This document shows, in pieces, positions 141 to 25,135 of a DNA stretch of 64,000 bases. Every line of letters begins with the position of its first letter. Position 1 is the first letter of the stretch. A model generated the notes under the pieces. The model saw nothing but the letters and a program-made list of their open reading frames with translations. It was not told the origin of the DNA and did not search any database. The DNA comes from Streptomyces sp. NRRL S-337 (GTDB lineage: Bacteria; Actinomycetota; Actinomycetes; Streptomycetales; Streptomycetaceae): the NCBI RefSeq assembly GCF_000720175.1, contig NZ_JOIX01000011.1:62001-126000 (forward strand). Direction: 5' to 3'. Made by a program: the position numbers and the translations under genes.

Positions 141-153
141 GAAAGGATCGTTC

Positions 154-8309: not shown

Positions 8310-8334
8310 TGTTTCACCCCGATCTTCGGTGCGA

Positions 8335-8357
8335 CTCAATTGCGGCTCAATTGCCGG
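8335..8357. promoter_or_regulatory. Adjacent 11-bp direct repeats, SARP-operator-like
   Basis: CTCAATTGCGG (8335-8345) is followed directly by CTCAATTGCCGG (8346-8357). Near-identical heptamers repeated at an 11-bp period are the known form of SARP binding sites. This pair sits in the divergent promoter region between the ATP-grasp/exporter operon and the oxygenase operon of a cluster that encodes two SARPs. A perfect palindrome GTGTTAACAC (8387-8396) and a TAGAAT -10-like box (8397-8402) follow on the plus strand. Assigning the site to either SARP is inference. Confidence 0.5.
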
Positions 8358-8568: not shown

Positions 8569-8618
8569 GCTGAAGAATGCTCCGTCAACTCCCCCTCACT
8601 TTCAGGAGTAGCATCAGC

Positions 8619-9940: not shown

Positions 9941-11085
9941 CCGCCACGACGGACACTTTCGCCGACGCGATCGGCGGACTCGGGGACACCGAGTGGGACC
10001 GGCTCGCCGACGGCAGGTTCTACTCGTCGGCGCTGTGGCTGCGGGTATGCGCCCTCGACCCCGGGTCGGTCTCCGGCGGACTGCACGTGAAGACCCCGGG
10101 CGGCGGCCGCGCCGCGATCCCGGTGGCGGCGGTGACCGACGAGCCCACCCCGGACCTGCGGTGGCACGACATGCTGGCCGCGCGCGGCCTGCCGGCGCCC
10201 GAGCCGGGCGGCCTGCTCATCGGCCAGCGCCGCGGCTACCTGGCGCACCTCCTGACCGGCGAGGGAACCGATCGGACCGAGGCCGCCGCCGCGGTGCTCG
10301 ACGCGGTCCGCGCGCTGCGCTCACCCCTGCACGAGGAGTCGAAGATCGCCCGGGTGGCGATGTACCTGACCACCGAGGACGTGGGGGCGCTGCGCGCGGC
10401 GGGGGTGCGGACCGCCCCGGTCGCGTTGAAGACCGACGCCTGGATCGAGATCCCGCCCGGCGGCTTCCACGCCTGGCTGGACTCACTGTCGGCGCACCGG
10501 GCCCGCCGCATCCGCAGCGAGATACGGAAGTTCGAGAAGGCCGGATACGAGGTGGAGCACCGAACGCTCGCCGAGTCCTGGCAGGACGTCGCCCGGCTGC
10601 TGGCCCGTTCGCTGCTGCGCTATGGCAGAACTGTCGACGTGGCCCCGATGGCAGAGTCCTTCCGCAAGCAGGGGGAACTCGCCGGTTCGCGCGCCGAAGT
10701 GGTGCTGTGCTCGCGCCCCGGCGAACCGCCCGTCGGCTTCTGCCTGTACTACCGTTGCGGCGACACCGTGCACCTGCGGGGGCTCGGCCTCGATCACGAC
10801 CGACTCGCCTCGGCCGCCGAGTACTTCAACATCACCTACTACATGGCGGCGCGGCTCCCGGGAGTGCGCCGGATCCACGCGGGCACCGAGACCGCGGAAG
10901 GAAAGGCACTGCGCGGCGCGACGCTCCAGCCACTGTGGCTGCTGGACCTGTCCGAGGACAGCCCGCTGGCCGGGCACGACGAGGAGATCCGCGAGCACAA
11001 CCGCGCCCTGCTCACCCACCTGCGCGACTCCTCGCCCGCGATTTCCGGCGCCCTGATGTACGAGCTCTGGGAGCCGTACTGCTGA
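9937..11085 (+). CDS. FemAB/BioF2-like GNAT-fold transferase
   Basis: A 382-residue protein starting at ATG 9937, preceded by GGGAGG and coupled to the upstream frame by ATGA. It resembles the GNAT-fold proteins annotated as peptidoglycan biosynthesis/FemAB-like or BioF2-like acetyltransferases. It has an N-terminal segment FYSSALWLRVCAL, and in the second half a GNAT-like core with EVVLCSRPGEPPVGFCLYY, then LRGLGLDHDRL, then YYMAARLPGVRRIHAGTETA. FemX-like relatives transfer amino acids from aminoacyl-tRNA; others transfer acyl groups from CoA. In an NRPS/ATP-grasp cluster either role would extend or cap the peptide. The substrate cannot be assigned. The next 215 bp hold no convincing gene on either strand. 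Confidence 0.7.
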   Translation: MTATTDTFADAIGGLGDTEWDRLADGRFYSSALWLRVCALDPGSVSGGLHVKTPGGGRAAIPVAAVTDEPTPDLRWHDMLAARGLPAPEPGGLLIGQRRGYLAHLLTGEGTDRTEAAAAVLDAVRALRSPLHEESKIARVAMYLTTEDVGALRAAGVRTAPVALKTDAWIEIPPGGFHAWLDSLSAHRARRIRSEIRKFEKAGYEVEHRTLAESWQDVARLLARSLLRYGRTVDVAPMAESFRKQGELAGSRAEVVLCSRPGEPPVGFCLYYRCGDTVHLRGLGLDHDRLASAAEYFNITYYMAARLPGVRRIHAGTETAEGKALRGATLQPLWLLDLSEDSPLAGHDEEIREHNRALLTHLRDSSPAISGALMYELWEPYC

Positions 11086-11300
11086 GGCCAACTGCCGCCG
11101 TCGTGGAGCGCGCCTACGGGACGGCTTGCCGCGGGCCGGGCGGGCGGACCTTGATGCTGCACCGCGGGCTGGTACGCGACGACGAGCACCAGCCCCGCAC
11201 CTCCGGGTCGCGGGTGTATTGGGCGATGACCGCGGTGATACTGCGCCGGCTGACCGGGGTGGCCACGCCGTCCCGGCGCGCCGCATGACCGGCGATCAGC

Positions 11301-11839
11301 TCACCCTCGGCGCACTGCCGGCACGGCCGGAGGAGGGCGAACAGCGTCGAAGCCGGCGGGCAGCCGGCAGGACACCTCGGCGATGGCCTCGTGGATGTCG
11401 CCGCCGAGGCGGACCAGCAAGGGCAGTGCCTGGTCGAACAGCGCCAGGCCGCCGTGCCGGAAGTTCCAGCCCCCTTGTAGCCGACGCCCACGCAGGACGA
11501 GCCGCTGGGTTCCCCGATCACCACGGCGTCCGGCCGCATCCGGTCGGCCAGGTAGCAGGCGCCCGCCGAGTAGTGTTCCTCTTCGACGGCGCCGACCACG
11601 ACGATGCGGGCCCGGCACACGTCGGACCGGGCGAATCGCGCGGCGGCGCAGATCATGGCCGCCGGCGGGCCCTTGGCGTCGACCGTGCCCCGGCCGTGCA
11701 GCACGCCGTCGATCGAGGTCCGGAAGCCGAGTGCGGGCATGCGTTCGGCCAGGAAGTCGCCGAGGGTGTTCTCGGAGCTCGGCACCTATGGGATGCGCAC
11801 CATGACGTGCAGCCGCTCCGCCTCGTTCGCCCGGTCCAT
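11301..11839 (-). pseudogene. LysK/ArgE-like M20 metallopeptidase, decayed
   Basis: The frame starts at ATG 11839, only 4 bp after the stop of the upstream oxygenase. It reads MDRANEAERLHVMVRIP and then a TAG at about 11786-11788. Past the stop it continues as SENTLGDFLAERMPALGF and then jumps directly to DGVLHGRGTVDAKGPPAAM. The metal-binding Gly-His-x-Asp-Thr motif that should lie between them is missing, so a deletion has removed part of the active site. Around 11470 a one-base loss shifts the frame; the restored frame gives GWNFRHGGLALFDQALPLLV. The remaining motifs (VVGAVEEEH, VIGEPSG) match LysK-type lysine/ornithine carrier-protein hydrolases and related ArgE/DapE enzymes. A nonsense codon, an internal deletion and a frameshift make this a clear pseudogene. 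Confidence 0.8.
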
Positions 11840-11843
11840 AGGC

Positions 11844-12590
11844 TCAGACCGCCGGGTTGAAGTCGACCTGGAGCATGTCGCGCACGCCCGAGGCGCCCTC
11901 GGAGACGGTCGGCGAGACCTCGTGGGTGATCCTGTTGTCGTCGAAGAACATGGAGTCGAGCGGCTGGAGCAGGGTGGTCTGCACGATGCCGCTGCCGTCG
12001 TTGGGGTGGACGGTGGACAGGCCGCCGGTGACGCCCTCGCGGCGCATCAGGTGCAAACCGACGCAGGAATGGCCGTCGCGGTGGCGGCCCTCGGGGGTGG
12101 GCAGGCCATCGGCGCCGGCGCGGGCGACGACGCGGACCAGGTGAACCCCGACCGTCCACGAGGTGTTGCCGTTGACCGCGGTCGCCATCCGGGCGTCGAA
12201 GCTGACCAGGGCGCGCATGCCGGCGCCGAGCAGGACGTCCTCGGCTATCGGCTCGAAGACCCGGTCCTTGCCCTTCCAGAGCGGGATGGCGTCCTGGCGG
12301 AAGACGGCGTTGGGCAGGACCTCGAAGGTGACGGCGTCGCCGTCGACGTCGACGCGCAGCCGGCCGTAGCGGCGCTCGCGGTAGACGCCGACGCCGTCGA
12401 CCTGGGTGTCGACCGGCAGGTTCTCCCAGGCGCCGCGGAGTTCCTCAAGGTCGGCGTCGCCGATCAGCCCGGCGAGCTCCGGTTTGCGCAGGACGACGAA
12501 GCCGGTGCGGCGGACCTGCTCCGAGAAGGTGGGCACGCCGTCACGGAGCTGTGGTGCGGTGGTCAGCGTGGTGCTGGTGCTGTCGGTCAT
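11844..12590 (-). CDS. Fe(II)/2-oxoglutarate oxygenase, PF10014-like amino-acid hydroxylase family
   Basis: A 248-residue protein. Start at ATG 12590, preceded by AAGGGGA; the frame is open 18 bp further but that would place the start in the binding site. It fits the 2OG-Fe dioxygenase family that includes bacterial free L-isoleucine dioxygenases: an N-terminal RTGFVVLRKPELAG, a His-x-Asp in PEGRHRDGHSCVGLHLM near residues 168-184, the distal His in DDNRITHEVSP, and a following Arg-Asp-Met-Leu-Gln-Val-Asp-Phe strand. Known members hydroxylate aliphatic or basic free amino acids. It follows the ATP-grasp gene with a 155-bp gap and is coupled to the decayed peptidase. Its substrate is probably an amino-acid precursor of the cluster product. 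Confidence 0.78.
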   Translation of the reverse strand: MTDSTSTTLTTAPQLRDGVPTFSEQVRRTGFVVLRKPELAGLIGDADLEELRGAWENLPVDTQVDGVGVYRERRYGRLRVDVDGDAVTFEVLPNAVFRQDAIPLWKGKDRVFEPIAEDVLLGAGMRALVSFDARMATAVNGNTSWTVGVHLVRVVARAGADGLPTPEGRHRDGHSCVGLHLMRREGVTGGLSTVHPNDGSGIVQTTLLQPLDSMFFDDNRITHEVSPTVSEGASGVRDMLQVDFNPAV

Positions 12591-12745
12591 GGTGTTTCCC
12601 CTTTGCACGGGTGTCCCGGCGGGGCCGGCGTTTCCGGCCGGGCCGGGTGCGGTTGATGTCGGGTGCGACCGATGGTCCGGTCACGCCCGGTGACGACGGT
12701 CGCCACGGGCAGATCGGCAGAGGCGTTGTGTGTCGTGGCGGGTGC

Positions 12746-14014
12746 TCACTCCTGCTCCTCGTACTCGACGTGCAGCGTCCGGGCGAGGTGGTCGAGGTAC
12801 GCCTCGGCCTCCGCGTCCGACGCGTGGTGGGAGAGCACGACCGCCGGGTTTCCGGACCAGTCCGGGTAGGGGCGCAGCACTGCGCCGGGGCCCGCGGTCT
12901 GCACCACGTAGTCCACCTGCGGGTCGGTACGCACCGCGTCCAAGCCGCGTATCTGCTTGACCCGTCCGCCGCTGCCGATCGGCACCAGGTACGCCGCCGC
13001 GTGGCCGGCCGGTGCCGGCCCCTCACGCCAGCAGATGGGCTCCTGCCCGAGGTGGATGCGCAGTGCCTCAGCAGCCAGGTCGATCCCGCTGCTGACGTGG
13101 GCGAGGTGGTGCATATTGCCCCCGCCGCCGAGGCGCGCGGTCATCTCCAGCAGCACCGGCCGCACCCCGCCGACCAGCCGCAGTTCGGTGTGCGTGGTGC
13201 CTTCCGTGACGCCGAAGGCGTGGTGGGCACCGATCACCTCCGCCTCGATCGCGGCGAGTATCTCGGCCGGCAGCTGGGCGGGGGCCCGCAATGTGGTCTC
13301 CTCGAAGTAGGGCCCCGTCAGCTGTCCCTTCCAGCTGACGGCACAGACCCTTACCTGCCCGTGGTACACGAGGGATTCGGCGGAGATCTCCGGCCCGTCC
13401 AGGTACTCCTCGACCAGCACACCGGTGTCCGAGTCCGGTCCGTGGGCGGCGCCCAGGTGGGTTTCGACGAGCTTCCAGGTACGGGCCACGGCCTGCTCAA
13501 GGCTGTCCCTGTCGTCCGCACGGATCACACCGAAACTGGAGTGGCCGTTCGCCGGTTTGACCACGACGGGGAACCGCAAGGTCAGCGCGTCGGTCCAGCT
13601 GTCCGGATCCTTGACGACCACGAAGCCGGGCACGCCCAGCCCCGCTTCCAGCAGGCGCTGGCGCATGCTGCGCTTGTCGCGCACCACGGCCGCCGCCTCC
13701 TCGGTCAGCCCGGTGAGGCCCAGCTCCCGAGCGGCGCGCGCCACGAACGGTATGACCCTTTCGTTGCCCGACATGATGCCGTCGAAGGGCTCTTGCCGGT
13801 AGCGGTCGGCGAGCGCGGACAACGCACCGTCCGGGTCTCCGTCGATGTCCAGCGGCAGCAGTTCGACCACCGCGTTGGCCCGCCCGGCGGACTCCGCCGA
13901 GTCGTCCCCCCTGGGGATGAGGATCAGGTCGATACCGGCACGCTCGGCGGCATCGAACACCCAGGGGAACACGGACAACTGACCGGCGAGGACAAGTTTC
14001 GGGCGTTGCGGCAT
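12746..14014 (-). CDS. ATP-grasp carboxylate-amine ligase
   Basis: A 422-residue ATP-grasp enzyme of the type used as L-amino-acid or peptide ligases. I chose ATG 14014 because GGAGA precedes it by about 8 bp; the open frame reaches 15589 but that part overlaps a SARP antisense and is not coding. Visible features: a Rossmann-like N-terminus (RPKLVLAGQLSVFPWVF), the ATP-binding strand RFPVVVKPANGHSSFGVI near residues 145-162, the acidic hinge VLVEEYLDGPEIS, and the C-terminal metal-binding segment VLLEMTARLGGGGNMHH. These enzymes activate a carboxylate as acyl phosphate and couple it to an amine. It lies downstream of a SARP and upstream of an amino-acid hydroxylase, consistent with ligating a modified amino acid or a deazaguanine carboxylate; the latter is speculation. 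Confidence 0.85.
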   Translation of the reverse strand: MPQRPKLVLAGQLSVFPWVFDAAERAGIDLILIPRGDDSAESAGRANAVVELLPLDIDGDPDGALSALADRYRQEPFDGIMSGNERVIPFVARAARELGLTGLTEEAAAVVRDKRSMRQRLLEAGLGVPGFVVVKDPDSWTDALTLRFPVVVKPANGHSSFGVIRADDRDSLEQAVARTWKLVETHLGAAHGPDSDTGVLVEEYLDGPEISAESLVYHGQVRVCAVSWKGQLTGPYFEETTLRAPAQLPAEILAAIEAEVIGAHHAFGVTEGTTHTELRLVGGVRPVLLEMTARLGGGGNMHHLAHVSSGIDLAAEALRIHLGQEPICWREGPAPAGHAAAYLVPIGSGGRVKQIRGLDAVRTDPQVDYVVQTAGPGAVLRPYPDWSGNPAVVLSHHASDAEAEAYLDHLARTLHVEYEEQE

Positions 14015-14184: not shown

Positions 14185-16017
14185 TCAGGCGGAGCACATG
14201 ACCGGCGCGCTGCTCGGCCGCGTCCCGAACGGGCGTATCCCGGGCTCCCATTCGTAGGAGAACCGGCCGTTCACGCACGGGTGCTGCGCGCGCAGCAGGT
14301 AGTTCTCCGCGAGCTCCTCCAGCAGGTCCTCGGCCCGCTGGTCGCTGATCCCCAGGGCCGTTGCGACGAGCGCCGACGTGAGCCGGTCGGGGACGCCGGG
14401 AGACAACAGCGCGTACGCCAGGGGCCGCGACCCGGCGGGCAGCGTCGCGAGCGTCCTGTCGAATCCGGCCCGCACGCCCAGCGGATCGCTGTCGGCGCCC
14501 CCGGACGCGAGGACCCAGGCAGTGGCGTGCCGGGCCGTCCAGTGCGGGCGGCGGCGCAACTGCGAAGCGACCGCGAAGAGCGCGCCCGGCAGCCCCCGGC
14601 ACAACCGGGCCAGCCGTCGCAGCCCCTCCGGGTCCATGGTGATCCGGTGTCTCGGCACGGAGGATGCCAGCAGGTGCAGACAGTCGTCGAAGGGCAGTCC
14701 GGACAGTTCGACGTGGACCGCCGACGAGGACACGAACAGCCGCCGACGGCTGCCGATCACCACGCCGCAGCCGGCGCCGGAGGGCAGCAGCGGGGTCAAG
14801 TCCCGTACGTCGCACACGTCGTCGAGCACCACCAGGACGCGGAGGTCGGCGGTCCAGGTGCGGAACAGCAGGCTCAGGTCGGTCGTGCCCAGTCGCAACT
14901 GCTCCTCGGTCGCGCCGAGTCCCCGCAGGAACGAGCGCAGGATCTCGGCGGGCCGCACCCGCCGGCCGGCGCCGTCCCGGAGACGCGCATAGAGCCGTCC
15001 GTCCGGGTAGTGACCGCTCACCTGATGCGCGGCGTGCAGGCACAGCTCGCTCTTGCCCGTGCCGGGGGCGCCCCCCACGATCACGAGCGGCCGGTCCTCC
15101 CGCGCCCGGCCGGCCAGCACCGCGGTGAGGCGCGCCAGCTGGCCGGCGCGTCCGGTCAGACGCTCGCGCGGGGCGGGCAGATGGCAGGGCGCCCGGGTGG
15201 CGGCGGTCACGGCCGTGAGCCGCCCGGCGGGACGCAGCAGCGCCTCGTCCGACGTGAGCACGGCCGTGTGCAGGGCCTGGAGTTGGGGCGAAGGGTCGAG
15301 ACCCAGCTCGGTGGCGATCCGCTCGCGTGCGCGCTGGTAGACCTGGAGCGCTTCCGCCCGCCGGTCCATGCGGTAGAGAGCCGTCATCAGATTGCCCTGG
15401 GCCCGCTCGTCCGTCGGTTCCCGCCCGGCCATCGAGGTGAGTTCGCCGAGCACCTCGTGGTGCCGGCCGAGGTGCAGGTCCGATTCGATCCGCAGGTGGA
15501 GTGCGCCGGTACGCAGCTCCTTCAGGCGGATCGCCTCGGCCTTCAGCGTAGGCCCCTTGCGTACGTCCACCAGGGCATCGTCCCGCCACAGCTGCAGCGC
15601 AGCGGCGGCCGTGTCACGGGCCCGGGCGAAGTCCTCGGCACGGAACTCCGCTCGGGCACGTTCGAGCAACGGCTCGCACCGGAAGACGTCCACGTGGTCG
15701 GCGGGCAGCGACAGCTGGTAGCCGCCGTCGACCGTGCCCAGCAGCGGTCCGGCCGCCCGTACCGCGCCGCCGCTCCTCGGGTTGCCGAGGGAGAACCGCT
15801 TCCTGAGCTGGTACACGTACGTCTGCAGCGCGGTGTGCGCGCTGGCCGGCGGGTTGTCGTTCCACAGCTCGTCCATGAGTTGCTCGAAGGGCACCACCCG
15901 GCCCGCGTTCAGCACGAGCGTTGCCAGTGTCTGACGTACTTTCTGGGCGGCCGGCGCCATGTCGACGCGGTGATCGTCCCCGTAGGCCTGGAGCGGCCCG
16001 AGAAGGTTGATTCTCAT
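14185..16017 (-). CDS. SARP-family pathway activator with NB-ARC domain
   Basis: A 610-residue AfsR/SARP regulator. Residues 1-95 form the OmpR-like winged-helix DNA-binding domain (begins MRINLLGPLQAY, includes LMDELWNDNPPASAHTALQ). Residues about 100-250 are the bacterial transcriptional activation domain with TPR-like helices (ELGLDPSPQLQALH). From about 300 on is an NB-ARC ATPase with Walker A GGAPGTGKSEL (near 314) and Walker B RVLVVLDDV. The long C-terminal TPR array of AfsR itself is missing. Start ATG 16017 has AGGGCGA upstream. It is the first gene of an operon with the ATP-grasp and PF10014-like genes and most likely activates the cluster by binding direct repeats such as those at 8335-8357. 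Confidence 0.93.
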   Translation of the reverse strand: MRINLLGPLQAYGDDHRVDMAPAAQKVRQTLATLVLNAGRVVPFEQLMDELWNDNPPASAHTALQTYVYQLRKRFSLGNPRSGGAVRAAGPLLGTVDGGYQLSLPADHVDVFRCEPLLERARAEFRAEDFARARDTAAAALQLWRDDALVDVRKGPTLKAEAIRLKELRTGALHLRIESDLHLGRHHEVLGELTSMAGREPTDERAQGNLMTALYRMDRRAEALQVYQRARERIATELGLDPSPQLQALHTAVLTSDEALLRPAGRLTAVTAATRAPCHLPAPRERLTGRAGQLARLTAVLAGRAREDRPLVIVGGAPGTGKSELCLHAAHQVSGHYPDGRLYARLRDGAGRRVRPAEILRSFLRGLGATEEQLRLGTTDLSLLFRTWTADLRVLVVLDDVCDVRDLTPLLPSGAGCGVVIGSRRRLFVSSSAVHVELSGLPFDDCLHLLASSVPRHRITMDPEGLRRLARLCRGLPGALFAVASQLRRRPHWTARHATAWVLASGGADSDPLGVRAGFDRTLATLPAGSRPLAYALLSPGVPDRLTSALVATALGISDQRAEDLLEELAENYLLRAQHPCVNGRFSYEWEPGIRPFGTRPSSAPVMCSA

Positions 16018-16129: not shown

Positions 16130-17155
16130 TCAGGAACTCCTGGACCCGGCTACCGCGGCCAGGGTCGGGTGGTGTCGGGCAACGATGTCGGGGAAGGAGC
16201 GGATCAGCCCTTTCATGACGTTGTCGCCGTAGAGGGCGAACAACGGGTTGCCGGCGACGTCGATGACTCCGCCGGCGCCCTCGACATAGGGGCTGGGCAG
16301 TGGCTGCATCGTGGCGTCCAGCCGAGGGTTGTAGAAGAAGGGAATGGAGTAGCGGTTGACGCCCGGGGCGGGCCGGACCACCCGGTGGAGGGTGGCACGC
16401 ACATAGCCCCTCGTCGCCACCTCCAGCAGCTCTCCCAGGTTGACCACGAACGCCCCCGGGATCACCGGCACGTCGGCGAACTGGTCGTCCTCGACCGCGA
16501 CCTGGAGGCCGCCGTTGCCGTCCTGGACGAGCAGGGTGAGCAGTCCGAGGTCGTTGTGGATGCCGGTGCCCTGGCCGGAGCCGGCGTTCTCGCTCGTCTG
16601 CGTGGGACCGGGGTAGTGCAGGAGTTTGAGGTGGATCTGCGGATCCGGAGCGACCACATCGTCGAGGAAATCGGCGGGGGCGTCGAGGGACTCAAGCATC
16701 AGCCGTAGCAGTCGATGTGACAGGTCGGTCAGCCGGGTGATCCATGACTCGATGGCCGGGCGCAGCTCTGGCATCGCCTCGGGCCACTCGTTCGGGCCGA
16801 TCAGGCACCGGTAGGCGGGTTCGCCGGGCGCGGGCGTCCTCGCGGGCTGCTCCGGCCCGATGTCCAGCTGTTGGCGCTGGTCGGGGATGCCCTTGGTGTG
16901 TTCGCGGCCGAGTTCGGAGTAGCCGCGGAACAGTGGCGAATCGAGGATGTTCAGCGCGAGCCGATCGGGCTCGGGCAGGGCGAAGAACCGGCGGGACAGT
17001 TCGAGCATGTCCTCGGCGTCCTCGATGCCGTGGCCGACGAGCTGGAAGAAGCCGATCTCGTGGATGGCCTGGCGCAACCGGTTCAGGAACGCTGCCCGGG
17101 TTTCTTGTGAACCGGCGGCGTCACGGAGGTCGAGCACGGGAAAGCGGTCGGTCAT
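16130..17155 (-). CDS. Isopenicillin-N-synthase-like Fe(II)/2-oxoglutarate oxygenase
   Basis: A 341-residue protein of the IPNS/DIOX_N family. Start at ATG 17155, eight bases after AAGGAG and overlapping the stop of the QueC-like gene (ATGA). The N-terminal DIOX_N signature is present (FPVLDLRDAAG, then EIGFFQLVGHGIE). The catalytic domain shows the His-x-Asp motif in GTGIHNDLGLLTLLVQD near residues 206-222, the distal His in RATLHRVVRP, and the Arg-x-Ser that binds the co-substrate in NRYSIPFFYNP. Family members hydroxylate, desaturate or cyclise small molecules. It is the last gene of the deazaguanine operon and could modify either the amino-acid part or the heterocycle. Confidence 0.88.
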   Translation of the reverse strand: MTDRFPVLDLRDAAGSQETRAAFLNRLRQAIHEIGFFQLVGHGIEDAEDMLELSRRFFALPEPDRLALNILDSPLFRGYSELGREHTKGIPDQRQQLDIGPEQPARTPAPGEPAYRCLIGPNEWPEAMPELRPAIESWITRLTDLSHRLLRLMLESLDAPADFLDDVVAPDPQIHLKLLHYPGPTQTSENAGSGQGTGIHNDLGLLTLLVQDGNGGLQVAVEDDQFADVPVIPGAFVVNLGELLEVATRGYVRATLHRVVRPAPGVNRYSIPFFYNPRLDATMQPLPSPYVEGAGGVIDVAGNPLFALYGDNVMKGLIRSFPDIVARHHPTLAAVAGSRSS

Positions 17156-17841
17156 GGCAGCTCCTTCGCATCGCTGGTCTGGTAGTGCGTCGGGTCGGTC
17201 ACGCCGGCGTCCCGGAACGCTTCCTGCCGCTCCCGGCAGGCGGCGCACCGTCCGCACTGCAGCGCATCGCCGCGAAAGCAGCTCCAGGTCTCGGTCCAGG
17301 GGACGCCGAGTTCCTCACCGAGCGACACCACGTCGCTCTTGCGCAGCCTGACCAGCGGCGCTGTCAGTGTCAGGTCAGGGTGCGCGTATCCGCGGGTCGC
17401 GATCCGCTCCATGGCGAGGAAGGAATCGATGAACGCGGCATTGCTGTCGGGCGCGGCCTGGAGGTCGTCGACCACCCCGACGGCCACCGCTTCCGCCTTC
17501 TCGGCGACGGCGACCGCGAAGGCGACGGACAGCAGGAGGGCATTGCGGTTGGGTACGACGTTCGGGCTCCCGCCGGACGACCCACTCCGGTGATCCGGCA
17601 CGTCGACGGTCGGGTCGGTGAGCGAGGAGCCGCTCAGGAGCTTGCCGACGGGGCTGAGATCGACGACGTCGTGCGGCACCCCGAGTGATCGAGCCGCCTT
17701 CACGGCGAACTCGTGCTCGACGAGATGGCGCTGGCCGTAGTTCACGGACAGCAGGTGGAGGGTGTGTCCTTGCGCCTGGAGGTGGTAGGCCATGGTGACC
17801 GAGTCCAGGCCGCCGGACACGATTGCGACAGTTTTCGGCAT
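17152..17841 (-). CDS. Divergent QueC-like 7-deazaguanine enzyme
   Basis: A 229-residue protein of the QueC family, which converts 7-carboxy-7-deazaguanine (CDG) to preQ0 with ATP and ammonia through an amide intermediate. Seen: the PP-loop SGGLDS (residues 9-14), LSVNYGQRH, VVPNRNALLLS, and a four-cysteine zinc site CFRGDALQCGRCAAC near the C-terminus. Odd: canonical QueC has a Ser-Gly-Tyr-Pro-Asp-Cys-Arg motif in the middle, but here the equivalent segment is DDLQAAPDSNAAFI, with Tyr, Cys and Arg replaced. This suggests altered chemistry or another nucleophile. QueC relatives that act on proteins have been described in anti-phage loci (from memory, not checked). It sits in one operon with FolE, QueD and QueE, so its substrate CDG is made next door. 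It overlaps the IPNS-like gene by 4 bp. Confidence 0.85.
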   Translation of the reverse strand: MPKTVAIVSGGLDSVTMAYHLQAQGHTLHLLSVNYGQRHLVEHEFAVKAARSLGVPHDVVDLSPVGKLLSGSSLTDPTVDVPDHRSGSSGGSPNVVPNRNALLLSVAFAVAVAEKAEAVAVGVVDDLQAAPDSNAAFIDSFLAMERIATRGYAHPDLTLTAPLVRLRKSDVVSLGEELGVPWTETWSCFRGDALQCGRCAACRERQEAFRDAGVTDPTHYQTSDAKELP

Positions 17842-17943
17842 GCGTCGCCTTCCGGCAGACGGAGAGGGATGGAGGGTCAGTGCTGAAGGATCAGGGCAGC
17901 GGTGTGCTGTGCACCGAAACGGCGGCGGACGTGCGGGCGTTTG

Positions 17944-18924
17944 TCACCGTGCCGGCGTGGCCGGGACGAGCAGCCGGGTCGATCGGTGGCCCTTGCGGTA
18001 GGTCAGTTCGACTTCGGGCCGCGGACCGTCCAGCCTCGTGGTGACGGTTCGCTCCTCGCTCCATCCGACCAGGCGGTACTCGTTTCCGCCGAGGGCCACC
18101 AGCGGGAAGAGGTGGTCCTGGGGAGATCGAATGGCCAGGTCCGTACCGGTGTCGACGATGCTGAAGGTGGCCTGCGGCTGCGGGCCGGTGAGCGACCCGA
18201 ACACCTCTATTTCCAGCAGGTGCGCCGGCGCGTCGAACGAACACCGCGCCGCTTCCCGCTCCTGGTCGGTCGTGGCCACGGCCGGACGGTTGTAGAGCAC
18301 GTCCGGGCCGTTGAAGTAGTCGGCCCAGTCAGCCGGGAACAGCCCTGCGAGCTCCGGTGTGACGAGCACGTCCACGACGAGATGCACCCGGTGCTGGGTA
18401 CCGAGGTTCTGGATCTGGTGCTTGCGGCTGAAGTCGCCGAACCAGAACTCACCGGGCTGCCAGCGGTACATCCCTCCGTCAAGGTCCAGCGAGGCTTCCT
18501 CGTGGGTGAGGACCGGGATGTGCAGCCGGGCCATGCCCCAGTCCGGGGCGAACTTGGGATCGCAATGGCGGTATCCGACGACGCCGGGTCCGAGATCCAT
18601 GAATCGGACTGCATAGAGGGGTCCGGGAATCGAGCGCAGGACCTCCTGCACGTAGGGCATGTGGTCCAGCCACTCGGTGTCGGCGAACTCCGCGCTGCCA
18701 GGGCCCCCTGGGTCGGTACGTGTCTTGTCGCCACCGGGGCTGCGCACCGGGAGGCAGCGCCAGTCCTGTTCGGCCCACCTGGACACTCGCCCGTTCTCGT
18801 GCGAGCTCTGCTCATCCCACAGGTGGTCGCGCGCAGTCATGAGGTCGGCCACCAGCCGGTCGGCGTCCAGCACGGGGAGCAGCCGAGCCGCTTCCGCAGG
18901 CGTCGAAGAATCACTTTCGTTCAT
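17944..18924 (-). CDS. Aspartyl/asparaginyl beta-hydroxylase-like oxygenase
   Basis: A 326-residue protein. I start it at ATG 18924 after AAGGGA; the frame is open a further 108 bp without a binding site. The N-terminal 200 residues fit the Asp/Asn beta-hydroxylase family (PF05118-like). VGYRHCDPKFAPDWGMARLH carries a His-x-Asp, MYRWQPGEFWFGDFSRKHQI the core strands, and GTQHRVHLVVDVLV the distal His. The family hydroxylates Asp, Asn or Arg side chains on peptides or carrier proteins. The C-terminal 110 residues (from about SLTGPQPQATFSIVD) look like an extra beta-rich domain that I do not recognise. It lies between folE and the QueC-like gene in the same operon. A peptide or carrier-bound substrate is plausible. 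Confidence 0.75.
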   Translation of the reverse strand: MNESDSSTPAEAARLLPVLDADRLVADLMTARDHLWDEQSSHENGRVSRWAEQDWRCLPVRSPGGDKTRTDPGGPGSAEFADTEWLDHMPYVQEVLRSIPGPLYAVRFMDLGPGVVGYRHCDPKFAPDWGMARLHIPVLTHEEASLDLDGGMYRWQPGEFWFGDFSRKHQIQNLGTQHRVHLVVDVLVTPELAGLFPADWADYFNGPDVLYNRPAVATTDQEREAARCSFDAPAHLLEIEVFGSLTGPQPQATFSIVDTGTDLAIRSPQDHLFPLVALGGNEYRLVGWSEERTVTTRLDGPRPEVELTYRKGHRSTRLLVPATPAR

Positions 18925-19084
18925 CGTTGTCCCTTCATGTCGACCGGACCGGATTCCCATGTCTGTCATCGGCCGCGATCGACCAGTCGGCCCCCGCAGC
19001 GGTCCGGAGAGTGAGCTCGCGAGCAGCGTCACGCCCGTTCCGAGCGCCCCGCCGGACGCCGCACTTTCGGAGTCCGATGACTCG

Positions 19085-19675
19085 TCACGCCCGGAGCAGG
19101 TCGAACAGCTCGCCCCGGAGCCCGGGGTCCGTGCTGAACTCCCCGCGATATGCGGTCGAGGTCATCTGCGCGGCAGCCTTGATGCCGCGCATCGACATGC
19201 AGAGGTGCTCGCCCTTCGCTATGACCGCGACGTCCGGGGTGCCGCTCAGGGTGCTGATCTCGAGCGCGATCTGGTCCACGAGGCGTTCCTGGACCTGCAG
19301 CTTGTGCGCGTACTGATGGGCGACCCTGGCGAACTTCGACAGGCCGAGCAGTTGCCCCGTCGGGCGGTACGCGATCGTCACGGAGCAGTTGAACGGCAGG
19401 AGGTGGTGCTCGCACAGCGACCAGACCTGAATGTCTGAGACGACTACGAGCTGGCTCGTGCCGATGGACTCGAAAAGCGTGCCCAGCGAACCCGGGTCGT
19501 AGTTGATGAACTCTCGCCACCAGCGGGCGAACCGCGCCGGTGTGTCGCGCAGTCCGTCGCGATTCGGGTCCTCGCCGATCTCCACCAACAGTTGGCGGGC
19601 GATCTCGACCAGGGGGTCCTCGGTCGTCCTCGACGCTGACGGGTCACCATCGAGGTCCAATTTTGTCATCGACAT
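19085..19675 (-). CDS. folE: GTP cyclohydrolase I
   Basis: A 196-residue FolE of normal length. It converts GTP to dihydroneopterin triphosphate, the first step of both folate and 7-deazaguanine synthesis. Zinc and active-site motifs are intact: SLCEHHLLPF near residues 86-95, then GLSKFARV and GEHLCMSMRGI. Start ATG 19675 has AAAGGTG upstream; a second ATG lies two codons in. It is embedded among queD, queE and the QueC-like gene, so it is a dedicated pathway copy rather than the housekeeping folate gene. Confidence 0.96.
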   Translation of the reverse strand: MSMTKLDLDGDPSASRTTEDPLVEIARQLLVEIGEDPNRDGLRDTPARFARWWREFINYDPGSLGTLFESIGTSQLVVVSDIQVWSLCEHHLLPFNCSVTIAYRPTGQLLGLSKFARVAHQYAHKLQVQERLVDQIALEISTLSGTPDVAVIAKGEHLCMSMRGIKAAAQMTSTAYRGEFSTDPGLRGELFDLLRA

Positions 19676-19712
19676 GTGGTCACCTTTCGTCCGGGCTGCG
19701 GAGTTACCGACC

Positions 19713-20075
19713 TCACGGCCGGTACTCGGCCCAGGTCTTGGGAGTCTCTGAGATACGCACGCAGGTCAACTCGGGAAACTTCGTCGACCATGTCTTGTAG
19801 AGCCAGGCCGCCATATTCTCAGCCGTCGGATTTTCGTCCATCACATCGTTGAGATGCCGATGATCAAGGTGATCGTCCAGCCAGGCCTTGAATGCGGACA
19901 ACTCTCCGTAGTCTCGAACGAAGCCCACGGGCAGCAGATCCGCATCATCGGCTCCAAGCTCCAGCTCGATCACATAGTTGTGCCCGTGCATTCGGGCACA
20001 CTGGTGCTCAGGAGCAAGGCCGGCAAGCCGATGACTGGCCGAGAATTCAAACTTCTTGGTGATGCGAAATGCCAT
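19713..20075 (-). CDS. queD: 6-carboxytetrahydropterin synthase
   Basis: A 120-residue QueD/PTPS-family enzyme that turns dihydroneopterin triphosphate into 6-carboxy-5,6,7,8-tetrahydropterin. The zinc histidines are in FEFSASHRL and CARMHGHNY. The catalytic Cys precedes HGH, DHRHLND supplies the Asp/His pair, and the pterin-anchoring Glu is in VRISETPKTW. All are intact, so the enzyme should be active. Start ATG 20075 follows AAGGGA. It lies 38 bp upstream of folE and downstream of queE on the same strand. Confidence 0.95.
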   Translation of the reverse strand: MAFRITKKFEFSASHRLAGLAPEHQCARMHGHNYVIELELGADDADLLPVGFVRDYGELSAFKAWLDDHLDHRHLNDVMDENPTAENMAAWLYKTWSTKFPELTCVRISETPKTWAEYRP

Positions 20076-20112
20076 CGATCCGAGTTCCCTTCTGCTTTGC
20101 GCGCACCGTTGC

Positions 20113-20826
20113 TCACACGGCGCGTTTGTCGTCCCACACCAAGGTGTGCAGTCTGGTCGTCAGGTTCCAGCCGCGCTTTACCACCGCGTCGGCCAACTCG
20201 CTCATGTGCTTGGTGACATCGTCGGCGGTACGCCCGATCGGCATGATCCATACCGAGGGCAGGTCGAAAGCGGCAACCAACTGGGCCACTTCGTCGAGAT
20301 CACGGGTGTTCTGGCAGACGAACTTGAACGTGCTTCCCGGCAGTGCCGCAAGACTGGTGAGGGCGGAAGGGACGATCCTGCGCTGCAGGGTGTCGCCCGA
20401 GTGCGACAACTTCGGCGAGACGTTGAACCGGACGCCGGCGGCGATGAGTTCGGGGTGCGCGGCGTGCGTCCCATTGGTCTCTATCTCGATCTCCTTACCG
20501 CGTCCGGTCAGTGCTGCCACCAGAGGAATCAGTCGCTCTTGCTGGCCCAGGGGCTCACCGCCGGATATCACGATCAGCTCGGTGTCGAACCCGAGCAATT
20601 CTGCGACGACCTCTTCGACCGGACGGCGGTGCAGCTCCTTACGCGGATCGTGGGCGACCCCGCTCTCACCGGCCCCGGTCCAGTCCCACGTGTAGGGCGT
20701 ATCGCACCACGAGCACGACAGGTTGCACCCGCCGAGTCGCAGGAACGCGCACCTGCGTCCCAGGGACCGACCCTCGCCCTGGACGGTCGGACCGAAGATT
20801 TCGTTCACTACGAGATCCTGCTCCAT
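20113..20826 (-). CDS. queE: 7-carboxy-7-deazaguanine synthase (radical SAM)
   Basis: A 237-residue QueE. It rearranges 6-carboxytetrahydropterin to 7-carboxy-7-deazaguanine using a 4Fe-4S cluster and SAM. The cluster motif Cys-x3-Cys-x2-Cys is in GGCNLSCSWCDT near residues 33-44. FGPTVQGEG at the N-terminus and VISGGEPLGQ for SAM binding are also present. Start ATG 20826 follows AGGAAA, and the gene begins 13 bp after the methyltransferase stop. Its product CDG should be the last common intermediate before the divergent QueC-like enzyme. Confidence 0.95.
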   Translation of the reverse strand: MEQDLVVNEIFGPTVQGEGRSLGRRCAFLRLGGCNLSCSWCDTPYTWDWTGAGESGVAHDPRKELHRRPVEEVVAELLGFDTELIVISGGEPLGQQERLIPLVAALTGRGKEIEIETNGTHAAHPELIAAGVRFNVSPKLSHSGDTLQRRIVPSALTSLAALPGSTFKFVCQNTRDLDEVAQLVAAFDLPSVWIMPIGRTADDVTKHMSELADAVVKRGWNLTTRLHTLVWDDKRAV

Positions 20827-20839
20827 GGCGCACCGTTTC

Positions 20840-21622
20840 CTATGAGTGGGACGGCTCGACGGCCGCGGGCTTCTGCGCCTGGACTATGAACCAATGCCGA
20901 CTCAGCCGGACGCCCTGTTCGACCGTCACCGCGGCGACATATCGATCGAATGCCTCCTTGTCCGCCGCCGAATCGTAGTTGTCGAGGATCGGCACTTGGT
21001 GCAGAAAGGTGTCCAGATCGCCCGCCGAGTGGTAGAACTCCTCGAACCGGAACGCCTGGTTTCTTGTCACGACGAAACCCGCATCGGACAGTTCTTGAGC
21101 AATCTCCTCCGACAAGGGCCTGCCGTTCCAGCTGTCGAAGTTCTGGCCGCGGCCGAACGTTTCCTTCAGCTCTCGCGCGTCCTGCTCCCCGATCCCCATG
21201 TACAACACGACCCCGCTGGGCCGCAGCACCCGCTCGAATTCACGGGCGATCAGCGGACCGCGGCGGGAAGTGACCACATCGGCGTACCCATCGGGCAGTC
21301 CCGTGTGGGCGGCATCGCACAGCTCGAACGTGACGTGCGACAGACCTGCCTCCGCTCGGTACCGCGCGGCGCATTCCAGCATCGAGGGCGACAGATCTAT
21401 CCCGGTCACGGCGCCGTACGCACGAGAGATGCGCAGCAAACTCCGCCCGTCGGCGCAGCCGACATCCAGCAGTCGGGCGTCCGGCGCTCCCAGTGCGTTC
21501 GCCAGTTCGTCGAAGACGGCGTCCGGGCGGCCGTCGGCGAATACGTCGGTGCTCCGCGCATCGCTCAAGTAGCCGCCGAACCGCTCGGCCACCCGGGAGT
21601 AGAACTCCGCGTCCATCGTCAT
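20840..21622 (-). CDS. Class I SAM-dependent methyltransferase
   Basis: A 260-residue methyltransferase with motif I LLDVGCADGRSL near residues 50-61, motif II TGIDLSPSML and motif IV-like GYADVVTSRRGPLIA. The ATG at 21622 overlaps the stop of the small upstream ORF (ATGA), so translation is coupled. A second ATG lies two codons downstream. It precedes queE by 13 bp. By context it may N-, O- or C-methylate the deazaguanine or the peptide part; the sequence does not tell which. Confidence 0.85.
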   Translation of the reverse strand: MTMDAEFYSRVAERFGGYLSDARSTDVFADGRPDAVFDELANALGAPDARLLDVGCADGRSLLRISRAYGAVTGIDLSPSMLECAARYRAEAGLSHVTFELCDAAHTGLPDGYADVVTSRRGPLIAREFERVLRPSGVVLYMGIGEQDARELKETFGRGQNFDSWNGRPLSEEIAQELSDAGFVVTRNQAFRFEEFYHSAGDLDTFLHQVPILDNYDSAADKEAFDRYVAAVTVEQGVRLSRHWFIVQAQKPAAVEPSHS

Positions 21623-21816
21623 CGGCCGTGCACCTTCCCCTGAACCACGGTCGAGGAGAGGCCCTGATGCGCACGCACCGGTTCCCTCCTCTTCCGTGGG
21701 AACTCCCAGTCAAGCTCTACCGCTGCTGTCGCGGGGGTCTTTGCGCTGCGCTGCGATTCGGTTTCCGGGACGCCGCACGCGGCGGGCGTCACCGCGTCCC
21801 GGGTCAATACGGTCAT
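21619..21816 (-). CDS. 65-aa small protein, first gene of the deazaguanine operon; precursor-peptide candidate
   Basis: ATG at 21816 has a full AAGGAG (21825-21830 read on the minus strand) at 8-nt spacing. The frame ends in a TGA that overlaps the methyltransferase ATG. The peptide begins MTVLTRDAVTPAACGVPETE, has one cysteine, a Trp in VELDWEFPRKRREPV, and a basic end GKVHGR. Codon third positions are about 77% GC, in keeping with coding. I do not recognise the family. Strong signal, operon-first position and coupling make it a real gene in my judgement. The role as a peptide substrate is only inferred from the surrounding enzymes. Alternatively it is a small regulator or a translational leader. 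Confidence 0.6.
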   Translation of the reverse strand: MTVLTRDAVTPAACGVPETESQRSAKTPATAAVELDWEFPRKRREPVRAHQGLSSTVVQGKVHGR

Positions 21817-22210: not shown

Positions 22211-25135
22211 TCAGCCGACCGGCGTCATCGTCCTGCCCAGGGTGGCAACGATGTCAGCCCGTACGGCAGCGGCCCCGCTGTGGTCCATGATCCGCTCCCG
22301 GATCCTGGCCGATCGGGAGTAGTACTCGACGGCCTGTTCCACACGACGCAGGCGGGCATTGACCCGGCCGAGGTCGTGCAGCACATACCCCTCTCCGACC
22401 AGGTCGCCGCTCGCCCCGACCATGGCGAGGACCTCAAGCAGGGTCCGTTCCGCCGCCTCGTACCGCTGCTGGTACATCAGCATGTGGCCCAGCCGCCGCA
22501 GTGCGAGGGCTTGGCCCCGGTCGAAGCCGGCTGACCGGCAGATCCCGAGAGCCTCGTCGAGATACGAACGGGTTCGCGCGAAGTCCGCTCGCCGCATCGT
22601 GATGTGCGCCATCTCGCCCAGCACGTATGCCCGGCCGATGACGTCCTGCGCCCGCACGAAGTTGCGCTCGGCGCTCTCGTAGAGGGCCAGCGCCCGAGCG
22701 TCGTCACCATGGTGCCGCTCGATGCGCGCCAGGTCACGCAGACACAGCGCTTGGCCACTCGGCTCCCCGATCCGCTCAAAGATCTCCAAAGCGGTGCTGA
22801 GGTAAGGGCCTGCTGCCTCATGCTCGCCCCGGTACAGGTGCAGGGTCCCCAACGAGCCGAGTACCGCTGCCCGGCCCCGTTCGTTGCCGGCCTCCTGTAC
22901 CGCGGTCAGCGCCACCTGATGTGTGCGCTCCCAGAGCTCGGGATAGCCACGGGCCTCGAAGAGCGTCACCAGAGTCGTGGCCAGCTCCCAGCACAACTCG
23001 TCCAGCCCGGACCGGGCCGCCAACTCGACCGCGTTCAACAGGTTGGTCTGCTCGCTCTCCAGCCACCCGAGCGGGTCGCGGAGGCACCGCTGGACCTGGT
23101 CCTCCGGCGGATGCCACCGTTCACCCCGGCCCGTCACGATGGTGTACGCACCGCCGTAGATCTCTTTGTGCGCCCGCTCGGCGAGCGCCATCCAGCCGCC
23201 GACCATACGCCGCACCGCTCCGGCGCGTTCTGCCTCGGAAATCTCCGCGGGCAGCCGTTCGTGCGCGATCATCCGTACGATCTGCGACAGTCCGCATCGG
23301 AACTCCCCGCCCTGGTCCATGGCGGTGATGTCGAGGAGCCGGCTGTCGATGAGCGGTTCCAGCAGGTCAGCGGGGTGCGGCGGGCGGTCGTCGATAAGGG
23401 CGGCACCCAGCCAGCTCGGGATCTCCGTCCCCTCGGCCAGACTGAGCAGGCACAACAGGCGACGGTCGGCCGCCGCCAGGCCGTCGTAGCTGAGCGAAAG
23501 ACTTGCCCGGATCGACAGCTCGCCGTGTGCCAGCTCGTCCAACCGGCGGTGCTCGTCCTCAAGCCGCTGGCACATGGAGGTCAGTGACCAGTGCGGGCGC
23601 GCGGCCAGGCGCGCGCCGATGATACGCAGCGCGAGGGGCAGCCCGCCCACCAAGCGTATGACGACCCGCGCTGCCTCCCGCTCGCTCTCCACACGGTGCT
23701 CTCCGATGATCCGCCCCAGGAGCTGGATCGCCTGTTCCGGACTCAACGGCTCCAAGTTGAACCGGCGTGTGCCCGGCAAGGCCGTGAGCTGGCCGCGGCT
23801 GGTGACCAGCACGCCGCTGCTGCCGGTTCCGGGCAGCAGCGGCATCACCTGCGACTCGCTCACCGCGTCGTCCAGCAACACCAGGATCCGGCGACCGGCC
23901 AGCAGACTGCGGTACATCTCCGCGCGCTCATCAAGCGCATCGGGTATGGCCTGGCCCGGTACGCCCAGCGCTCGGAGGAACCGCCCCAACGCCTGGGCGG
24001 GGTCGACCGGTTGTCCGCCCGGCCCTCGGAGGTCGCAGTAGAGCTGTCCGTCCGGGAAGTACTCGGTCGCGAGTCGGTGCGCCACGTGCCTGGCCAACGT
24101 GCTTTTGCCGACACCAGGTCTGCCGAGCACCAGGACCACGTTCAGTCGCCCCTTTTCCTGTCCCCCGGTGACCGCGTCGCAGACCGCTGAAACGATCGCG
24201 TCGTCGGCTACGAAGTCGCCGATGTCGGCGGGAAGTTGCCTGGGGGTGACGACCGGGTCGGGATCGGCGCTGCGCTCTTGCACCGCCTCGGTCAGCGGCG
24301 TCGCCATGAGAGGACGTGGTTCGGCCGGTTCGGCCGGTTCGGCCAGTGCCAGGTCAGCGTCGTCGGTCAGGATCGCCTGCGCCAGGTCGCGTAGTTCCCT
24401 TCCTGGGTCCAGGCCCAGTTCTTCGGTGAGCATCGCGCGGCCCTGGTGGTAGACGTCCAGCGCCTCCGCCTGCCGGCCCGAACGGTACAACGCCACCATG
24501 AGGTGCCCCCGCAGCCGCTCACGCAGCGGATGGTCGGCGACAAGCTGCATCAGCTCGCCGACCAGGTGCTCATGACGGCCCAGCTCCAGCAACAGCCGCA
24601 TGCAGGTCTCCACCGCTTCCAGGCGGCTCTCGTCCCACTGCGCTGCCGTACCGGCCAGGACTTCGCTGGGTACACCGGCCAGGCACCGCCCCCGCCACAG
24701 ACCTATCGCCGAGCGAAGCGTGTCCACCGCAGGCATCTTCAGACCGTCACGGGCCAGCGCATGCGCCTCCGTTACCAGGCGACGGAAGGTGCCGATGTCG
24801 GTCGCATCCTCCGGCGCCCTCAGGATGTAGCCACAGGCACGGGTCTCGATGGTGGCGTCGACTCCCCCGGCCGAAAGTGCCTTGCGGAGCCGGGAGATGC
24901 AGATCTGCACCTGGGCGCGTGCGGTCTTCGGCGGACGGTGAGCCCAGATGACATCCACCAGGCGGGTCGTCTCCACCACCCGGTTCAGTTCGAGCACCAG
25001 CGCCCCGAGGACGATCTCTTGACGCCCCGGTGCCACGGATACGGCCCCCAGCTCGCCGCACACCTCAAGCGGCCCGAGCACCCGGAAAGGAGCTGCCGCT
25101 ACGCCACTGCCGTCGTAACCTGACGAGACTGCCAT
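22211..25135 (-). CDS. AfsR-type SARP with NB-ARC and TPR domains
   Basis: A 974-residue large SARP. An N-terminal winged helix (FRVLGPLEVCGELG, then LVDVIWAHRPPKTARAQVQI) spans residues 15-110, and an activation domain follows to about 265. A Glu-Pro-Ala linker leads into an NB-ARC ATPase with Walker A VLGRPGVGKSTLA near 336 and Walker B RRILVLLDDAV. The C-terminal 300 residues are TPR helices (for example ALCLRDLARIERHHGDDARA). This is the full AfsR architecture, unlike the shorter SARP at 14185. It is the outermost gene of the cluster and is transcribed alone towards the deazaguanine operon. The TPR part may sense a protein or small ligand. Confidence 0.94.
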   Translation of the reverse strand: MAVSSGYDGSGVAAAPFRVLGPLEVCGELGAVSVAPGRQEIVLGALVLELNRVVETTRLVDVIWAHRPPKTARAQVQICISRLRKALSAGGVDATIETRACGYILRAPEDATDIGTFRRLVTEAHALARDGLKMPAVDTLRSAIGLWRGRCLAGVPSEVLAGTAAQWDESRLEAVETCMRLLLELGRHEHLVGELMQLVADHPLRERLRGHLMVALYRSGRQAEALDVYHQGRAMLTEELGLDPGRELRDLAQAILTDDADLALAEPAEPAEPRPLMATPLTEAVQERSADPDPVVTPRQLPADIGDFVADDAIVSAVCDAVTGGQEKGRLNVVLVLGRPGVGKSTLARHVAHRLATEYFPDGQLYCDLRGPGGQPVDPAQALGRFLRALGVPGQAIPDALDERAEMYRSLLAGRRILVLLDDAVSESQVMPLLPGTGSSGVLVTSRGQLTALPGTRRFNLEPLSPEQAIQLLGRIIGEHRVESEREAARVVIRLVGGLPLALRIIGARLAARPHWSLTSMCQRLEDEHRRLDELAHGELSIRASLSLSYDGLAAADRRLLCLLSLAEGTEIPSWLGAALIDDRPPHPADLLEPLIDSRLLDITAMDQGGEFRCGLSQIVRMIAHERLPAEISEAERAGAVRRMVGGWMALAERAHKEIYGGAYTIVTGRGERWHPPEDQVQRCLRDPLGWLESEQTNLLNAVELAARSGLDELCWELATTLVTLFEARGYPELWERTHQVALTAVQEAGNERGRAAVLGSLGTLHLYRGEHEAAGPYLSTALEIFERIGEPSGQALCLRDLARIERHHGDDARALALYESAERNFVRAQDVIGRAYVLGEMAHITMRRADFARTRSYLDEALGICRSAGFDRGQALALRRLGHMLMYQQRYEAAERTLLEVLAMVGASGDLVGEGYVLHDLGRVNARLRRVEQAVEYYSRSARIRERIMDHSGAAAVRADIVATLGRTMTPVG

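Follow-up and report, generated by a model that had tools for sequence, protein, structure and literature searches.

The stretch analyzed here (the window: 64,000 nt, G000:C11:62001-126000, from a 9.06 Mb Streptomyces host genome) carries a gene cluster for 7-carboxy-7-deazaguanine (CDG) chemistry in which the QueC homologue, encoded on the minus strand at 17152..17841, has lost part of the central motif of canonical QueC. Judging by the alignments and trees, this motif loss is the mark of one clade of QueC-like proteins, and is neither a chance event nor private to the strain. From sequence, it is reasonably likely that the clade proteins are amide ligases that couple CDG to an amine on an amino acid or peptide. 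With marginally less assurance, we favor the view that they form an undescribed QueC subfamily for small-molecule deazaguanylation, which would found a varied family of actinobacterial deazaguanine-capped peptides spanning three or more amino-acid subtypes. An earlier note on this DNA had listed FolE, QueD, QueE and a QueC homologue beside two ATP-grasp ligases and a nonribosomal peptide synthetase (NRPS). Domain and family matches bear out this inventory: the QueC homologue belongs to PF06508, one ligase (12746-13984) is of the L-amino-acid-ligase type (LAL), the other (6852-8339) is identified by the names of some of its homologues and a glutathione-synthetase-like model, and the NRPS has the domain order A-T-C-A-T.

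The QueC-like protein matches PF06508 (2.4e-51) and scores 147.5 bits against TIGR00364, for which the cut-off is 150.3. At 229 amino acids (aa) it has full QueC length, and its AlphaFold2 model (pLDDT 91) finds as nearest folds QueC (2PG3, 3BL5) and Cap9 (9NTO). All the canonical signatures SGGxDS, YxQxHxxE, VPxRN and the four zinc cysteines are present (the first three as SGGLDS, YGQRHxxE and VPNRN), as are Lys168 and the Asp of the YPDC motif; the PP-loop and zinc cysteines are thus kept, as previously noted. The central motif was said to be lost. It reads DDLQAAPDSNAAFI, in which YPDCR has indeed lost its Tyr, Cys and Arg to Ala130, Ser133 and Asn134, but Pro131 and Asp132 remain. An additional change, which had gone unmentioned, is the replacement by Phe of Tyr189, the residue after the first zinc cysteine. 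The protein therefore has neither the YPDC motif nor the Tyr189 expected of a canonical synthase of 7-cyano-7-deazaguanine (preQ0). The part consulted of a study of E. coli QueC reports that Y35A, R99A, Y131A and Y189A each abolish queuosine (PMC13329287); of these four essential residues, the clade keeps the equivalents of Y35 and R99 and loses those of Y131 and Y189.

Four sampling searches of 392, 396, 394 and 394 genomes, partly overlapping, together with two targeted searches, yielded 145 QueC neighborhoods. Three of the sampling searches used the window protein as query at E 1e-20, and one used P0028 at E 1e-40. Every listed sampling match was followed up (G264 and G371 via L001 and L005), and at most seven first-look candidates were scored per genome. 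The 145 loci comprise 30 clade loci, 109 loci of a YPDC class that is defined by its motif (107 distinct sequences), and six others. Six of the clade loci (L002-L004, L006-L008) came from the targeted searches rather than from sampling, and L042, from the same genome as L005, was excluded. The clade list was set by the authors: 17 loci (L001-L008, L040, L041, L043-L048, L050) are rows of a 130-row tree, eight of the 13 loci L149-L161 are in a 68-row tree, and L149, L152, L154, L156 and L157 were assigned by motif and identity. The six other loci (L121, L124, L128, L199, L200, L206) hold QueC homologues outside the clade without an exact YPDC (for example FPDN, FPDA or LPDA), and have no LAL match nearby.

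With the motif and Cys-Phe columns removed, the motif-degenerate proteins, 53 of them once L121, L124 and L128 are set aside, still form one branch. Its support is SH-aLRT 99 in the 130-row quick tree, which included 42 of the 120 listed homologues, and UFBoot/SH-aLRT 100/99 in the tree of 68 rows chosen by the authors. The earlier note had regarded firm grouping inside the canonical preQ0 synthases as evidence against its proposal. The outcome is divided: midpoint rooting places the clade inside actinobacterial canonical QueC, but as its own strongly supported branch. Clade members were found in 12 of the 392 genomes of the Streptomyces sample, the host's own included, and also in Kutzneria, Actinoplanes and Amycolatopsis; no further member was found by sampling at the phylum level (51 new loci) or the class level (13 new loci). 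The nearest relatives of the window protein are in Streptomyces olivochromogenes (98% identity) and S. rhizoryzae (97%). A subgroup of relatives (within P0025-P0049) carries the motif variant SVPDSTPEF. Y35, R99, D132 and K168 are present at all 30 clade loci. Tyr is found at neither position 130 nor position 189 at any of the 30, with residue 189 being Phe in 28 and Met in two. Y189 is present at 109/109 YPDC loci, as is Y130, though the latter by class definition.

Comparative evidence for a peptide-related function comes from gene neighborhoods. A LAL gene is present at 29/30 clade loci, 0/6 other loci and 1/109 YPDC loci, nine of which are shorter than 10 kb, making absence there weaker. 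A homologue of the 2-oxoglutarate (2OG)-Fe(II) oxygenase gene next to the window's QueC-like gene (DIOX) is present at 28/30 clade, 0/109 YPDC and 0/6 other loci, and FolE, QueD and QueE occur together at 30/30, 26/109 and 0/6, respectively. The sole YPDC locus with a LAL match (L127) has no LAL_C2 domain; this domain was confirmed by Pfam in all nine of the non-type-A clade loci scanned (L043, L045, L047, L048, L050, L153, L156, L158, L160; types are defined below). As a lone query (at least 50 bits), the window LAL matched at 23/30 clade loci, including seven of 13 of type B, versus 1/109 YPDC loci. In an earlier, smaller locus set with type A left out, LAL was found at 19/19 clade versus 1/74 YPDC loci. 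The chance rate is approximately 1% per 20 kb, based on four to five LAL-like matches in each of three 9-10 Mb genomes. A homologue of the window's methyltransferase was found at 23/30 clade loci (11/11 type A, 12/13 type B, 0/6 type C) versus 0/109 YPDC loci, and one glycosyltransferase seed matched at 0/30 clade versus 22/109 YPDC loci.

The 30 clade loci divide into type A (11, plus this window), type B (13) and type C (six). Type A loci are characterized by SbnA/SbnB, the NRPS, and an aspartyl/asparaginyl beta-hydroxylase-like (AspH) 2OG oxygenase, the last found only in type A among the clade loci examined. Type B loci typically carry the methyltransferase and a class III aminotransferase (11/13). 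At six of the 13, no more than approximately 250 bp separate the LAL match from QueC, and in L153, L156 and L158 the called open reading frames (ORFs) share 4 bp. Type C loci carry a succinyltransferase and an ornithine/diaminopimelate (Orn/DAP) decarboxylase in three of six cases, and a beta-eliminating lyase in L050. DIOX homologues are 62-66% identical to the window protein in type C and 27-31% in type B. What is constant across the clade is CDG synthesis, the QueC-like protein and, except in L149, LAL; what varies is the set of amino-acid supply genes. This is the pattern expected of a family of CDG-amino acid conjugates. As a separate observation, in L045, L047 and L161 (type C) the QueC-like/LAL core is accompanied by genes resembling tetrahydrodipicolinate succinyltransferase and Orn/DAP decarboxylase, which hints at an amino acid derived from the lysine pathway.

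In type A, the operon, the LAL gene and the NRPS region are one cluster, not two neighbors. The stretch from the methyltransferase to LAL is in the same order in seven relatives (L001-L007) and in L008, a plasmid of S. angustmyceticus. All nine other type-A genomes searched have an NRPS orthologue (at least 89% identity). It shares a contig with the QueC-like gene in seven of them; in the other two, S. olivochromogenes and S. iranensis, the two genes are on separate contigs, and both QueC contigs end nearby. The NRPS also lies beside the QueC-like operon in the L008 plasmid and in L149. In seven non-type-A clade genomes searched, NRPS matches were at most 46% identical among the matches listed. 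The type-A cluster occurs in Kutzneria as well (L003), and the L008 plasmid (NZ_CP104318.1, 616 kb) was typed by MOB-suite as non-mobilizable.

These observations suggest the following pathway. FolE, QueD and QueE would make CDG. Like QueC and Cap9, the QueC-like enzyme would use ATP to activate the carboxylate of CDG. It would then transfer the activated CDG to an amine on an amino acid or short peptide, in place of amidation with ammonia and dehydration to preQ0. The ATP-grasp ligases and, in type A, the NRPS with 2,3-diaminopropionate would supply or extend the amino-acid part, so that 2,3-diaminopropionate and an NRPS dipeptide probably form part of the type-A partner. The 2OG oxygenases and methyltransferase would decorate the conjugate, and an MFS pump would export it. 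We infer the ligase reaction, the identity of the amine, the order of steps (LAL acting earlier or later than the QueC-like enzyme), what the oxygenases do, and the product itself. The earlier note had envisaged a CDG amide or nitrile joined to an amino acid or peptide. The conjugate is backed by the LAL counts and the NRPS linkage, and amide ligation to amino acids is probable because clade members mostly adjoin peptide-forming enzymes; nitrile formation is disfavored because the clade has lost both tyrosines that E. coli QueC needs for queuosine. Cap9, a reported maker of a substituted CDG amide, likewise lacks Tyr189.

Several points weigh against CDG-amine ligation. The Fisher P for the LAL-clade association (1.3e-27) overstates independence because the association represents one evolutionary gain, and two of the three LAL seeds were from clade loci, which favors detection in the clade. 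The type-A locus L149 (G1362) has no LAL in the cluster, the best match elsewhere in that genome being 33%. L050 and L160 have no DIOX match, and Tyr189 is found in one of the 53 clade proteins. Part of a paper on Cap9 describes the YPDC Tyr as stacking on the base, with the Asp reading the Watson-Crick edge (PMC13279940). The base would have to be held another way in the clade, since Cap9 keeps the stacking Tyr that the clade lost. Moreover, CDG is itself an acid, and LAL could couple it to an amino acid without QueC.

The main rival to CDG-amine ligation, to which we assign an appreciable but clearly minor chance, is that the QueC-like protein is a primary-amide synthase that stops at 7-amido-7-deazaguanine (ADG), having lost the dehydration step, while the ATP-grasp ligases attach amino acids elsewhere. 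Loss of Tyr at positions 130 and 189 alongside retained ATP and zinc sites equally fits a lost second half-reaction. On chemical reasoning, however, ADG would offer LAL no good amine or carboxyl handle, yet LAL is encoded at all but one of the 30 clade loci. It is unlikely that preQ0 synthesis has survived the motif change, with preQ0 then entering an ordinary deazapurine metabolite. While the PF06508 match, a TIGR00364 score barely under the cut-off, and public annotation, which where given names the orthologues 7-cyano-7-deazaguanine synthase, are consistent with this idea, the two tyrosines essential in E. coli are missing from the entire set of clade loci, and the nucleoside-type loci L056-L058 keep both. 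Slightly less probable again is that CDG is coupled to an amino acid by LAL, leaving the QueC-like protein as a vestige or with some other substrate. LAL enzymes form amide bonds from carboxylates via acyl phosphates, and CDG is such a carboxylate; against this, the checked ATP-site, substrate-Asp and Lys residues of the QueC-like protein are kept at 30/30 clade loci, including the LAL-less L149. Protein deazaguanylation or anti-phage defense in the style of Cap9 or QatC is very improbable: the superfamily is the same and Cap9 is among the nearest solved folds, yet the best PADLOC match was generic QueC, with QatC matching over the C-terminal part only, a search of 35-120 aa ORFs at 16 type B and C loci gave QueD and frames apparently antisense to larger genes (not checked singly) but no other common small protein, and the Pfam-scanned cluster genes include neither a CD-NTase nor a TGT-family gene.

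Known uses of deazaguanines were also considered for this genome. The earlier note had remarked that QueF and a tRNA-guanine transglycosylase (TGT) were not nearby. This holds for the entire host genome: there were no matches for a TGT-family transglycosylase (the control was found in 14/14 genomes) or for QueF (control in 8/14). The host genome search gave one QueC match only, and thus no second QueC. Queuosine or DNA 7-deazaguanine modification was rejected for a genome without a TGT or QueF match. Pfam scans of 20 cluster-region proteins gave no glycosyl- or phosphoribosyltransferase, in agreement with the earlier observation, and a nucleoside antibiotic is disfavored.

The QueC-like gene is part of a tight minus-strand operon running from 21622 to 16130. 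The first gene encodes a class I S-adenosylmethionine (SAM) methyltransferase (20840..21622; PF13649/PF08241). It is followed by QueE, the radical SAM CDG synthase (20113..20826; PF04055, with CxxxCxxC in the translation; TIGR03365 99 bits, cut-off 206), QueD, a 6-carboxytetrahydropterin synthase (19713..20075; PF01242; TIGR03367 83.5 bits, cut-off 89.25), and FolE, a GTP cyclohydrolase I (19085..19675; PF01227; NF006826 175.6 bits, cut-off 162). QueE and QueD thus score under NCBIfam equivalog cut-offs, and FolE over one subfamily cut-off. The zinc and iron-sulfur motifs that we take to be diagnostic of FolE, QueD and QueE are readable in the translations, in line with the earlier statement that their catalytic motifs are intact. 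Next come the AspH-like oxygenase (17944..18924; PF05118; orthologue annotated in L008), the QueC-like gene, and DIOX (16130..17155; PF14226/PF03171), whose frame shares 4 bp (ATGA) with that of the QueC-like gene. The AspH start was placed by analogy with the 326-aa L008 orthologue; its ORF opens at 19032. Gaps between the ORFs as called, from the methyltransferase through to the QueC-like gene, are 13, 37, 37, 52 and 102 bp, with the 52-bp FolE-AspH gap counted from the earliest possible AspH start, 19032.

Downstream on the minus strand lie a SARP-type regulator with BTAD and NB-ARC domain matches (14185..16017) and the LAL gene (12746..13984; PF18130, PF13535, PF18603), whose start is possibly further upstream. 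The LAL combines an ATP-grasp domain with a LAL C-terminal domain (PF13535 and PF18603), as expected of an L-amino acid ligase, and matches the BL00235 L-amino acid ligase 3VOT with 233 bits (4.6e-68). Beyond it are an accessory isoleucine-dioxygenase-like 2OG-Fe_Oxy_2 gene (11844..12608, minus; PF10014), with no match in L006, L007, L008 or L149, and a partial M20 peptidase, perhaps a remnant (11114..11785, minus; PF01546 over positions 19-113 of 206), which aligns over just 71 residues in L002 and 79 in L041. In G325 there is a 69%-identical LAL fragment at C1:8255898-8256062; together with the remnant-like peptidase, it suggests recent loss or duplication at this spot. A GNAT/FemAB-like protein, possibly an aminoacyl transferase (9904..11085, plus; PF13480; start uncertain), has an orthologue in L008 whose annotation includes a phosphatidylglycerol lysyltransferase domain, and an accessory PhyH/ectoine-hydroxylase-like 2OG oxygenase (8577..9431, plus; PF05721) scores under the TIGR02408 cut-off.

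The second ATP-grasp enzyme (6852..8339, minus), circularly permuted or glutathione-synthetase-like, has no Pfam match itself. Some homologues have ATP-grasp Pfam matches or are named circularly permuted ATP-grasp or glutathionylspermidine-synthase-like, and the top PDB matches of its AlphaFold2 model (pLDDT 87) are glutathione synthetases, with the ligase Cp1B also among them. The MFS exporter (5403..6842, minus; PF07690) and the NRPS (76..5088, plus; A-T-C-A-T by domain scan; probable start ~154) follow. The first A domain resembles by eye what we take to be a glycine code, a likeness given no weight. Upstream of the NRPS, as seen in L010, are a thioesterase extending into the first 140 bases of the window, SbnB and SbnA; SbnA and SbnB are the 2,3-diaminopropionate pair, each over its NCBIfam cut-off. 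The L149 cluster also has no MFS or second ATP-grasp match, and its NRPS and a divergent FemAB-like gene adjoin the operon, making it a natural reduced version.

At the opposite cluster edge is a large SARP/TPR regulator (22211..25135, minus) that is 84-96% identical in L001, L002 and L004-L008; a match of this kind is missing from L003. Next to the cluster, GlxA- and LuxR-like genes (25462-29880) have matches beside the L044 type B cluster (LuxR 86%, GlxA 69% over 52 residues), which suggests a shared insertion site or shared regulators. Further away, a tRNA-Leu(gag) called at 33054-33145 overlaps the 5' portion of a long same-strand ORF with VTVISSATNTVLATVPVG-type repeats (31238-33187), whose true start is therefore probably further in than called.

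In phage defense, deazaguanylation is known to modify proteins; if the clade proteins act on amino acids, this chemistry has a natural-product branch. Such a reaction would also explain how two tyrosines essential for queuosine can be given up, since the product would be a substituted amide. It would provide a handle for mining deazaguanine-capped peptides: no YPDC Tyr, no Tyr189, and LAL near QueC. Named clade proteins are publicly called preQ0 synthase, so the difference would escape automatic annotation. The main text of a survey of the QueC family has no mention of Streptomyces, Actino-, ATP-grasp or natural product, and no publication on this cluster appeared among the papers listed in searches of the open-access PMC literature.

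Among known systems, clusters of the huimycin, toyocamycin and tubercidin type share the FolE/QueD/QueE core, mostly with QueC, and a deazapurine product, but as published they use glycosyl- or phosphoribosyltransferases, which are absent from the cluster genes scanned here. Three loci in the set are closer to them: L056 (methyltransferase, glycosyltransferase-like), L057 (IMPDH/GMPR) and L058 (two glycosyltransferases, methyltransferase-like ORF), all with YPDC and Tyr189. The toyocamycin gene list used for this likeness is one that we assume to be accurate. As far as the parts consulted of two sources go, L056-L058 resemble the published huimycin and toyocamycin/tubercidin clusters (PMC7439116, PMC6112128). 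Another possible product class is represented by echiguanine A, compared here by name and presumed structure only. We take it to be 7-deazaguanine-7-carboxamide, a structure that is not confirmed here. It is named as a Streptomyces product in the part consulted of one source (PMC6112128); Streptomyces may therefore already be known to make such an amide, and the "new scaffold" of the earlier note may be too strong.

QatC resembles the clade in having a QueC core with a remodeled YPDC motif. It differs in its N- and C-terminal extensions and immunity operon, and the window protein scores just 22-27 bits against QatC, including 26.8 bits for model NF041925 (cut-off 280). Cap9, of type IV CBASS, converts CDG to an N-terminal glycine amide. 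The clade shares with it the proposed chemistry of CDG with an amine, the lack of Tyr189 (Glu in Cap9) and Ala at 200. The proposed ligation would be the small-molecule equivalent of this protein modification. Cap9, however, keeps YxDC and acts on a protein substrate, whereas the clade protein is of full QueC length (229 aa versus a scaffold of ~185 aa) and lies in a biosynthetic cluster, with no CD-NTase neighbor among the cluster genes scanned. Canonical QueC (TIGR00364) shares with the clade the fold, SGGxDS, YxQxHxxE, VPxRN, the zinc cysteines, the substrate Asp and the FolE/QueD/QueE context; the clade is set apart by the loss of the YPDCR Tyr, Cys and Arg and of Tyr189, by its separate branch, and by its LAL and DIOX neighbors.

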